From assembly GCA_027313505.1 (NCBI GenBank), contig DAHVDN010000006.1, positions 24,913-88,912 on the forward strand: a stretch of 64,000 bases of DNA, read 5' to 3'. Below the pieces are notes generated by a model that had not been told where the DNA came from, did not search any database, and saw nothing but the letters and a program-made list of their open reading frames with translations. The stretch's first letter is position 1; each line of letters opens with the position of its first letter. Positions 1-3,899 of this stretch are shown piece after piece. This DNA is from Candidatus Dormiibacterota bacterium (GTDB lineage: Bacteria > Chloroflexota > Dormibacteria > Aeolococcales > Bog-877). A program made the position numbers and the translations under genes.

Positions 1-476
1 GGCCGGCCTGCCTTTGTCGGGGTAGGGTGGACCGGTCCCGCCGAGATGTAGTCGGCTCCGTCGCGAACCGCCGAAACAACCTGATCACGGTCGTGCGTCG
101 AGGCACCGACGAGGACGTCAGGTCCCAGGCGGACACGGGCCTCCGACAAGGGCATGTCCTCATGGCCTAGATGCAGCCCGTCCGCCCCGCAGCTCACGGC
201 CAACTCCAGGTGGTCATCCACCACAAAGAGGACTCCGGCCCGGTGGCAGATCTCCACACACCGCCTGGCGAGTGCCTCAAGGTCCCTGGGCGCCGCCCCC
301 TTCCGCCGGAGCTGAAAAATGTCGACCCCGCCATCGATCGCAGCCGAGAGCAGCTCAAGAAGCGCCGCTTCGGGGGTCGCGTCGTCGCTGACCAAATATA
401 GCCGAGCAGATCTGAGCCGGTTCCGTCGGCCGCTGCCGCTCTCCAGCCCTCCTTGTCCGGCCGAAGCTGTGGACAT
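1..476 (-). CDS. thiE: Thiamine phosphate synthase, 3' end outside window
   Basis: The product would couple 4-amino-2-methyl-5-hydroxymethylpyrimidine diphosphate with the thiazole phosphate to make thiamine phosphate in the cytoplasm. Reading from the ATG at 474-476 gives 158 residues of a TIM-barrel ThiE: an early LYLVSDD strand, QLRRKGA where the family has QLR-K, VDDHLELA, ADGLHLG, VGASTH and a final AGPVHPTPTK phosphate-binding loop. The family is about 210 residues long, so roughly 50 C-terminal residues lie beyond the window edge. It is the last gene of the long minus-strand run, about 200 bases after the AcpS-NnrD fusion. I see no TPP riboswitch core in that gap. The start rests on the first ATG before the conserved core. 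Confidence 0.85.
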   Translation of the reverse strand, partial: MSTASAGQGGLESGSGRRNRLRSARLYLVSDDATPEAALLELLSAAIDGGVDIFQLRRKGAAPRDLEALARRCVEICHRAGVLFVVDDHLELAVSCGADGLHLGHEDMPLSEARVRLGPDVLVGASTHDRDQVVSAVRDGADYISAGPVHPTPTKAGR

Positions 477-672: not shown

Positions 673-1923
673 TCAGCCCAAGACTCTGCTCTCCAAGAGC
701 CGGCGAACCTCCTCCTGGACCTCGACGACGGCGTCCGCAACCTCGGTGGCGAGAATGCCGGCCCGGCCCCTGGTCTGGGCCAGTCGCAGTCCAGCCTCCC
801 CGTGCAGAAAGACCCCCGCCCTGGCCGCCTGTGTAGGCTGGCTCCCCTGGCTGAGCAACGCCCCGATCAGACCGGAAAGCACGTCGCCGGTGCCTCCCAT
901 CGCCAACGCGGAGGTCGCGTGCGAGTCAGTCCACATCTCGCCGCTCGGGTCGGCCACCACAGTGCCAGCCCCTTTGAGGACCACGACACAACCAAACTCC
1001 CTGGCAAGTGCTCCGGCCGCCGCCGGCCTGTCCGCTTGGACCGAGGCTGCATCGGTCGCAAGCAGTCGAGCAGCTTCCAGGGGGTGGGGGGTGATCACGC
1101 AACCCCTCGGAACTCTCCCCCGCAGCCGGGGCGAGGTGGAAATCACGTTGAGGCAGTCGGCGTCGAGGACCAGTCGCACTCCTCGATCGGCCAACCCCTC
1201 CAGGACGACGGCGACGAAGTCTGAAACCGGCTCCGCCTGTCCGAGTCCAGGGCCGCAGACAACCGCGCTGGCATCAAGGAGTTCCTTGGCAATCTCTCGA
1301 GCCGCGTCACTGCCGTATCCGGCGCCTTCCCCAGTTACCCGGAGGCGGATCACCTCCGGCGGCAGTCGGTCAAGGGTTGAGGACCGGTCCATCAGCGCCT
1401 TCACCTTGCCAGCACCTCCCCTCAGGGCCCCCATGCAAGCCAGCACCGCAGCCCCGGGAAGACCGGGGCTTCCGGCAAGCACAACCACCGTCCCGAAGCT
1501 TCCTTTGTTTCCATCCTCCGAACGCTCGGGTAGAAGGACTTCAGGGGGAAGCTGCTCATATGACAGCGACCCAATGGAACCGGTGAAGACCGCCACCGCG
1601 ATGGCGAGCCCGGCGTCATGGCTGAGGGTGATCTCCAGGCCTGGCACCGCCAACCCCGCGACCGTCACCTCAGGCGCACCTCCGCGCCGGTGCGTCACGG
1701 CAATGCTCGGATAGGTGGGTATCGACCGGCCGGTGCCGCCAAATGCCTTCCGCACCGCCTCTTTTGCCGCCCAGCGAGCTGCCAGCCGCTCAGGCCGGCC
1801 CTCGCAGTAGATGGCCTCCTCGGCTGTGAACAGCTTCGCCACAAATCTGGGCCGCCGCTCACAGAGCTTGGCGACCCTCTCCACAGAGGTGACATCAACG
1901 CCCACGGACAGCCCACCTTTCAT
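673..1923 (-). CDS. Fused holo-ACP synthase (AcpS) and ADP-dependent NAD(P)H-hydrate dehydratase (NnrD)
   Basis: This is one uninterrupted 416-residue frame with two enzymes. Residues 1-115 are AcpS, which moves 4'-phosphopantetheine from CoA to acyl carrier protein: GVDVTSVERV with the metal-binding Asp10, the helix WAAKEAVRKAFG at 51-62, and SHD at 101-103. Residues about 135-410 are the NnrD (YjeF C-terminal) kinase-like dehydratase that repairs hydrated NAD(P)H: NKGSFG at 139-144, GPGLG at 224-228, TPHP at 278-281 and GGTGDVLSG at 343-351. NnrD is usually fused to the epimerase NnrE, which is missing here. In several Firmicutes acpS lies next to a yjeF-type gene, so a fusion of neighbours is plausible. 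Both domains look complete. The gene sits between glmS and thiE. Confidence 0.88.
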   Translation of the reverse strand: MKGGLSVGVDVTSVERVAKLCERRPRFVAKLFTAEEAIYCEGRPERLAARWAAKEAVRKAFGGTGRSIPTYPSIAVTHRRGGAPEVTVAGLAVPGLEITLSHDAGLAIAVAVFTGSIGSLSYEQLPPEVLLPERSEDGNKGSFGTVVVLAGSPGLPGAAVLACMGALRGGAGKVKALMDRSSTLDRLPPEVIRLRVTGEGAGYGSDAAREIAKELLDASAVVCGPGLGQAEPVSDFVAVVLEGLADRGVRLVLDADCLNVISTSPRLRGRVPRGCVITPHPLEAARLLATDAASVQADRPAAAGALAREFGCVVVLKGAGTVVADPSGEMWTDSHATSALAMGGTGDVLSGLIGALLSQGSQPTQAARAGVFLHGEAGLRLAQTRGRAGILATEVADAVVEVQEEVRRLLESRVLG

Positions 1924-1951: not shown

Positions 1952-3784
1952 TCACTCAACGGTGACGGACTTGGCCAGGTTGCGAGGACGATCCACGTCG
2001 TAGCCTCTGGTCATCGCAGCGTGGTAGGCCAGCAACTGCCCCACTACAGCTGTGAGAAGTGGCGAGACGACCTCCGGCACCCTCGGCACCTCCACGGTGA
2101 ACTGGACATGATCAGCCAAGGTCGTATCTCCTTCGCTCACTACTGCCAGAACCGGGCTTTGACGGGCGTGGACCTCCTGGATGTTGCTGCGCACCTTCTC
2201 CCGCGTTGATGAATCGGTGGCAAATGCCACCACGGGCATCTCCTCGTCAAGAAGCGCGATCGGCCCGTGCTTCAGCTCCCCCGCAGGATATCCCTCGGCG
2301 TGCACATAGGCCACCTCCTTCAGCTTGAGGGCCGCCTCCATCGCGGTCGGATAGTTGTAGCCGCGTCCCATGTACACCGCACTTCGATGCTCGGCCAGCC
2401 AGGCTCCGAGATCCGCGAACTCATGGTCCCTGGAAAGGAGCTGTCGCTGAGCCGCAGACACCGAGCGGAGCGCGGCCGCCAGTTCTCGGATATCACCCTC
2501 ACCCCTGCTCCCCCGTGCCTGGGCGAGGCGCAGCGCCAGCAGCACGGAGCAGGCCACCTGGTTGGTGAAGGTCTTGGTTGCGACCACGGAGATTTCCGGT
2601 CCGGCGTGGAGGTTGATCACCCCGTCCGCCTCCATGGCCAGGGTGCTGCCCACCACGTTGGTCAGCGCCAGAACGAAACTCCCACGTTCCCGGGCCAGCC
2701 TGGCCGCTGCCAAAGTATCCGCTGTCTCCCCGGATTGGGAGATCGCGACCATCAAGGTCGAGGAAGTCGAAGGTTGCGGCCGGTAGCGCCACTCCGAAGC
2801 AACCTCCACCGTGGCCGGGATCCCCGCTAAATCTTCAAGGGCGTTTTTGGCGATCATCCCAGCATAGAAGGCGGTCCCGGCCGCCACAATCTGGACGCGC
2901 TCTATGCGACGCAGCTCTTGATCACCGGAGGCCCAGTCGGAAAACTCGACCCGTCCATCACTGAGGAGTCGTCCGCGCAGGGCGTTCTCCAGCGCGGCCG
3001 GCTGCTCGTGGATCTCCTTGGCCATGAAGTTGGGGTACCCTCCCCTCTCCGCCTGAATCACGTCCCACTCCACCCGAATCACTCGTGGGACCAGCTCTGC
3101 GCCATCAGCAATGGTTGTGACCACGGGACCAACCGGGCTCAGGACCGCCATCTGTCCCTCTCCAAGAACGATCGCCTGCCGCGTGTAGGGGATGATTGCC
3201 GTCAGGTCGGAGCTCAGAAACCACTCATCAGTCCCAACGCCGACCACCAACGGTGCGTTGAGGCGGGCGCCGATGAGTGTGTCCGGATCGGTGGAGCTAA
3301 GCACGACGACCGCGTAGGCCCCGCGAAGCCGACCGAGCGCCGTGCGTGTGGCAACCACCAGGTCGCCCTGGTAGTACGACTCGATGAGATGTGGCAGGAC
3401 CTCCGTATCGGTCTCGGAGGTGAAGATGTGTCCCTGGGCCCGCAGTTCGTTCCTGAGCTCAGCAAAATTCTCGATTATCCCGTTGTGGATGACAAAGAAA
3501 CGGCCAGTGCAATCCCGATGGGGATGGGCATTCTCGTGGCTGGGCTTCCCATGGGTAGCCCAGCGGGTGTGTCCCATTCCCACTCGGCCGAGGATCTCTT
3601 CGCCGTCGATCCTGTCCAACAGTGCCTCAACCTTCCCGGCGGAGCGGATGCTTGTGGGGGCGCCATCCGCCCCGAGGACCACCACCCCCGCCGAGTCGTA
3701 ACCGCGATACTCCAACCGCTGGAGACTATCCAGGAGAACGGGAGCGGCCACGCGAGGCCCGAGGTATCCGATGATGCCGCACAT
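1952..3784 (-). CDS. glmS: Glutamine--fructose-6-phosphate aminotransferase (isomerizing)
   Basis: GlmS makes glucosamine-6-phosphate from fructose-6-phosphate and glutamine, the entry step to UDP-GlcNAc and peptidoglycan. The start is set by the N-terminal nucleophile: Met is followed by CGIIGYLG, so Cys2 is exposed after Met removal. An upstream in-frame extension of 17 residues is rejected for that reason. The Ntn glutaminase domain shows RGYDSAG and HTRWATHGKP (72-81). Two SIS sugar-isomerase domains follow with SQSGETADT and ELKHGPIALL, and the protein ends in DRPRNLAKSVTVE, typical of the family. The length of 610 residues is normal. It follows cdaA and cdaR on the same strand, the position often held by glmM in Firmicutes. 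Confidence 0.96.
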   Translation of the reverse strand: MCGIIGYLGPRVAAPVLLDSLQRLEYRGYDSAGVVVLGADGAPTSIRSAGKVEALLDRIDGEEILGRVGMGHTRWATHGKPSHENAHPHRDCTGRFFVIHNGIIENFAELRNELRAQGHIFTSETDTEVLPHLIESYYQGDLVVATRTALGRLRGAYAVVVLSSTDPDTLIGARLNAPLVVGVGTDEWFLSSDLTAIIPYTRQAIVLGEGQMAVLSPVGPVVTTIADGAELVPRVIRVEWDVIQAERGGYPNFMAKEIHEQPAALENALRGRLLSDGRVEFSDWASGDQELRRIERVQIVAAGTAFYAGMIAKNALEDLAGIPATVEVASEWRYRPQPSTSSTLMVAISQSGETADTLAAARLARERGSFVLALTNVVGSTLAMEADGVINLHAGPEISVVATKTFTNQVACSVLLALRLAQARGSRGEGDIRELAAALRSVSAAQRQLLSRDHEFADLGAWLAEHRSAVYMGRGYNYPTAMEAALKLKEVAYVHAEGYPAGELKHGPIALLDEEMPVVAFATDSSTREKVRSNIQEVHARQSPVLAVVSEGDTTLADHVQFTVEVPRVPEVVSPLLTAVVGQLLAYHAAMTRGYDVDRPRNLAKSVTVE

Positions 3785-3899
3785 GTCTAGGTCCCACCTC
3801 CCCGCGCTTGGCCACCTTCTCAAAGACAAACGCACCGGCTCCCTCCCAGGTTACATACATGGCGCTTTCGGGCTCCGCCCGGAGTTCCCAGGAGACGGC

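Follow-up and report, generated by a model that had tools for sequence, protein, structure and literature searches.

Clustering of acpS, the gene for holo-ACP synthase, with yjeF has been recorded in seven phyla; its significance has been unclear, and a connection with the NADPH consumed in making lipids was proposed (Niehaus et al., 2018; PMC5938422). The two Nnr proteins concerned, the epimerase NnrE and the dehydratase NnrD, are fused in 97% of the genomes that hold both, and spontaneous epimerisation of NAD(P)HX proceeds with a half-life of about 40 min (PMC5938422). AcpS itself is known as a protein in its own right, about 120 aa long, as in Bacillus subtilis (1F7T/1F80) and Streptomyces coelicolor (2JBZ). 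The gene described here encodes a protein of the same family, with the same Asp and Glu metal ligands, and differs in that an NnrD domain has been added at its C-terminus. It lies near one end of the window, by which is meant the whole stretch of 64,000 nucleotides analysed (contig DAHVDN010000006.1, positions 24,913 to 88,912) from a member of the Dormibacteria, a class of the Chloroflexota, whose genome (G000) is a 277-contig draft of about 92% completeness.

The fusion gene and its setting

The gene occupies positions 673-1923 of the minus strand, a strand left unstated in the initial annotation. From an ATG start it runs on without an internal stop to give a protein of 416 aa. Its AcpS (holo-ACP synthase) domain (1579..1923, minus strand; approximately residues 1-115) aligns to 1F7T and 2JBZ and matches the Pfam family ACPS (PF01648) over residues 6-96 with 46.2 bits against a cut-off of 25. 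A short, variable linker (1543..1578, minus strand; roughly residues 116-127) leads into the NnrD domain, an ADP/ATP-dependent (S)-NAD(P)H-hydrate dehydratase by family (676..1542, minus strand; approximately residues 128-416), in which Carb_kinase/NnrD (PF01256) is matched over residues 146-398 with 169 bits against a cut-off of 27. Both domains thus score above their Pfam cut-offs within one open frame, and the unbroken AcpS-NnrD reading of the initial annotation is borne out; a YjeF_N (NnrE) domain (PF03853) was not found by Pfam in the 416-aa protein. Among the NCBIfam models, yjeF_cterm (TIGR00196) gave 185.5 bits, above its cut-off of 129.85, and pantethn_trn (TIGR00556), which describes the broader phosphopantetheine-transferase domain, gave 53.2 bits, above its cut-off of 45.35. 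The strict acpS equivalog TIGR00516 gave 48.7, under a cut-off of 59.8 that is a naming rule and denotes no mechanistic feature; the AcpS assignment therefore leans on the family, the active-site residues and the status of the gene as sole candidate.

Every motif named in the initial annotation could be located: D10, A52-A53-K54-E55-A56 of WAAKEA, S101-H102-D103, GPGLG from residue 224 and GGTGDVLSG from residue 343. D10, E55 and K59 align with D8, E58 and K62 of B. subtilis AcpS, of which D8 and E58 are the Mg-binding residues and K62 is a conserved Lys. The equivalent of K59, together with a conserved His near the C-terminus, is present in the B. subtilis and S. coelicolor enzymes as in the fusion. 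The NnrD part matches in sequence proteins with solved structures, namely Thermotoga maritima TM0922 (2AX3) and B. subtilis YxkO (1KYH, 3RPH), and comprises the same complete domain, including GPGLG, TPHP, LKG and GGTGD. Structure prediction from the single sequence gave a mean pLDDT of 45.7 for the fusion, too low for the model to be of use.

Directly upstream, across a gap of 28 bp, is glmS (1952..3835, minus strand; SIS and GATase_6 domains), which likely shares an operon with the fusion gene; ahead of glmS come genes for a YbbR/CdaR protein, a diadenylate cyclase (cdaA) and an ornithine/aspartate carbamoyltransferase. The gene directly downstream encodes a 297-aa ThiE-ThiS protein (1..476, minus strand, running past the window start; L002:10496-11389) and is followed on the same strand by thiG, thiL, tsaE, tsaB, rimI and tsaD, as read from the sequence, with tsaE confirmed by Pfam. 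The order glmS – acpS/nnrD – thiE – thiG is found again in family f3. The thiE-thiS gene is a fusion too, with TMP-TENI at residues 25-204 and ThiS at the C-terminus (residues 232-293); in family f3 the ThiE and ThiS parts are often in different frames. Profile searches of the whole genome returned a single match to PF01648 and a single match to PF01256, each of them the fusion gene, and no other AcpS/PPTase and no other NnrD was found in G000; as the genome is incomplete, the assembly could lack a further PPTase or NnrD.

Epimerase gene and conservation across the class

The initial annotation regarded NnrE as absent; for the genome as a whole this is incorrect, the gene being missing at this locus only. 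The one match to PF03853 in G000 lies at C22:55909-56430, on a different contig from the fusion, within a stand-alone gene for a protein of 241 aa (L003:10832-11557). This gene is unlinked to the fusion and overlaps by a few bases a SAM hydroxide adenosyltransferase gene sitting behind groL. A separate nnrE is present in 99 of 110 class genomes. In about 20 NnrE neighbourhoods read, the gene often adjoins groL and the SAM hydroxide adenosyltransferase gene in families f1-f3 and has a different, conserved setting in family f4. The NnrE of G000 is peculiar in carrying Arg (codon CGA) at the position of the catalytic Lys (K192 of Escherichia coli YjeF in the published numbering) and GSNGGD in place of GNNGGD; the Lys is kept in three NnrE relatives of the same genus and in the other class members checked. 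Judging by these substitutions, the epimerase activity of the G000 protein may have been lost.

Fusion-gene matches were obtained in 107 of the 110 class genomes, including all 37 of good quality, and a single uninterrupted full-length fusion is present in about 93 of these 107 (our own count from the table), with all four families represented. Most of the rest can be put down to contig ends, to Ns or to frameshifts that lie beyond a junction which is itself in frame. In G304, G327, G340 and G349, AcpS and the start of NnrD share a frame, with frameshifts or a contig end later; G305 and G311 contain Ns; G199 is fused with an AcpS N-terminus that is not recognisable; and the 880 bp that precede NnrD in G301 showed no AcpS. 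A TGA reported within the match in genus g11 was rejected as a split between the domains, the eight flagged copies carrying the stop at the C-terminal end and not at the junction. G167 has two diverged full-length fusions (L064, L065) on two contigs, each adjoining glmS, for which a mixed bin is a possible source.

Among 63 class fusions, E55 and K59 are invariant and the Asp motif is present in 62, the remaining one being truncated by a contig end; K140, G144, G224, D254-A-D256, T278-P281, K317, G344, G346 and D347 are likewise invariant. Across seven species of one genus, dN was about 0.01-0.04 against dS of about 0.2-0.65 for the AcpS domain, and about 0.02-0.09 against about 0.15-0.6 for the NnrD domain; both domains are under strong purifying selection. 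Between the His of SHD and the Lys of KGxFG there are 35 to 64 residues in the 63 relatives, most commonly 38, and this variable length of the linker suggests that there is no fixed geometry between the domains. In family f3 linkers (L064, L065, L071, L073, L077), stretches such as PPPGEGQGGG and PERLKRSPGTEAPLAWADGPA are inserted with the frame intact, and these resemble translated copies of short dispersed repeats.

Origin within and beyond the phylum

An ancestral acpS-yjeF neighbour pair, suggested in the initial annotation, is well supported by the way these genes are arranged in the phylum's other families and by the clustering in seven phyla (PMC5938422). In f7, f25, f52, f56, f71 and f73, acpS precedes nnrD by a few hundred bases, and nnrE occupies the space between. 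In f11, f21, f32 and f45 (L079, L080, L103-L122), acpS directly precedes nnrD as a separate gene, in a different frame or with a stop intervening and mostly with no space for nnrE between, and nnrE is elsewhere in nearly all of them; these several lineages of the phylum are thus also without the usual NnrE–NnrD fusion. The path to the class fusion would be expected to have run from neighbouring acpS, nnrE and nnrD through loss of nnrE from the middle to in-frame joining of acpS and nnrD. In a tree of NnrD, for which the root was not inferred, a branch with support of 65/91 divides the 24 class fusions tested from the other sequences, which lends weak support to a single origin of the fusion in the class. 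The tree does not place f11, f21, f32 and f45 as sister of the class fusions, so the loss of nnrE from the locus may have happened repeatedly.

Beyond the phylum, a search of a plasmid collection returned a 417-aa AcpS-NnrD protein of Monoglobus pectinilyticus (Bacillota; WP_320690366.1, NZ_OY725726.1 43299-44552) with the same domain order and size (PF01648 at residues 2-107, PF01256 at residues 150-407); it differs in being only about 35% identical and in adjoining alr rather than glmS and thiE. A shared origin of the Monoglobus and class fusions was neither supported nor rejected (p-AU 0.098). The record is annotated solely as 'NAD(P)H-hydrate dehydratase'; the architecture is not unique to the class and was already in public records, unnamed. 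One scan of a genome-contig collection gave no more than one distant NnrD, from a Nitrospirae MAG; no relatives were found in viral contigs, and no paper naming an AcpS–NnrD/YjeF fusion was found among the open-access papers searched.

Function of the joined domains and comparison with known systems

The explanation in which we have strong confidence is that the protein is a bifunctional housekeeping enzyme that came about when acpS was joined in frame to the part of nnr that encodes the dehydratase, its neighbour in the operon, and the fusion is probably functionally ordinary. From the domain assignments, the N-terminal domain would transfer 4'-phosphopantetheine from CoA to apo-ACP, and the C-terminal domain would use ADP or ATP to remove water from (S)-NAD(P)HX and so restore NAD(P)H. 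Each domain would act independently, with no shared intermediate to channel, and the S epimer would be supplied by the separate NnrE or by spontaneous epimerisation. The main effect of the joining would then be equal expression of proteins that were previously encoded side by side behind glmS; the tie between phosphopantetheinylation of ACP and nucleotide repair drawn in the initial annotation is supported only to this extent.

An alternative is that the joining has a regulatory or spatial purpose, such that AcpS docks ACP and thereby places NAD(P)HX repair at the machinery of fatty-acid synthesis, one of the main consumers of NADPH, or that NAD(P)HX or ADP sensed by NnrD modulates ACP activation. 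The acpS-yjeF clusters in seven phyla and the suggested NADPH/lipid link (PMC5938422) are in keeping with this, as are the occurrence of an equivalent fusion in a different phylum, in Monoglobus, and the fact that the partner of acpS is the dehydratase in the class and in f11, f21, f32 and f45, with nnrE elsewhere. However, AcpS and NnrD have no common substrate or product and their linker varies in both length and sequence, and such a purpose must be considered unlikely. AcpS is required in small amounts only, which also counts against it. A further reading, also unlikely, is that the joining links oligomers of AcpS and of NnrD in one larger assembly, which sets NAD(P)H repair next to ACP and the NADPH-consuming enzymes of fatty-acid synthesis, or that ACP activation is coupled to nucleotide damage; a functional device of this kind would, if true, account for the acpS/nnr neighbourhood in many phyla.

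It is very improbable that one of the domains is an inactive passenger, for example an AcpS superseded by an Sfp-type PPTase. The TIGR00516 score below cut-off and the extra PF01648 proteins of some class genomes, mostly open frames of about 180-290 aa, could be read in this way, but G000 has no further match to PF01648 or PF01256, the catalytic residues are invariant or nearly so, and dN is lower in the AcpS domain than in the NnrD domain. We give equally little credence to the production of a separate NnrD alongside the fusion from an internal start in the linker: there is one in-frame GTG in the linker of the window and an in-frame ATG in the linkers of 27 of 63 relatives, but internal start codons are not conserved and 12 of the 63 have none whatever. 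That adjacent genes were merged by an assembly or sequencing artefact, as the 277-contig draft and the frameshifts or gaps within the gene in some relatives might suggest, can be dismissed with near certainty, the fusion having survived this check through the recurrence of the same in-frame junction in about 93 genomes, each assembled independently and together spanning all four families, with linkers that differ from family to family.

In the neighbourhood described by Niehaus et al. (2018), the same genes are clustered but separate and NnrE is mostly fused to NnrD; in the class, AcpS and NnrD are fused and NnrE is encoded elsewhere. The partner of NnrD is NnrE in most bacteria and AcpS in the fusion. 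With NnrE and NnrD fused to each other almost everywhere, the clustering by itself could not show which of the two AcpS accompanies. The class separates the Nnr domains, and hence the association of acpS tracks the dehydratase, not the epimerase; with AcpS fused to that dehydratase, the association becomes testable on one protein. Another natural fusion of an AcpS-type domain, recognised here through weak matches, is the C-terminal phosphopantetheinyl transferase of the fungal fatty acid synthase alpha subunit. There the domain is fused to the fatty-acid-synthesising machine itself, whereas in the class it is fused to a repair enzyme.
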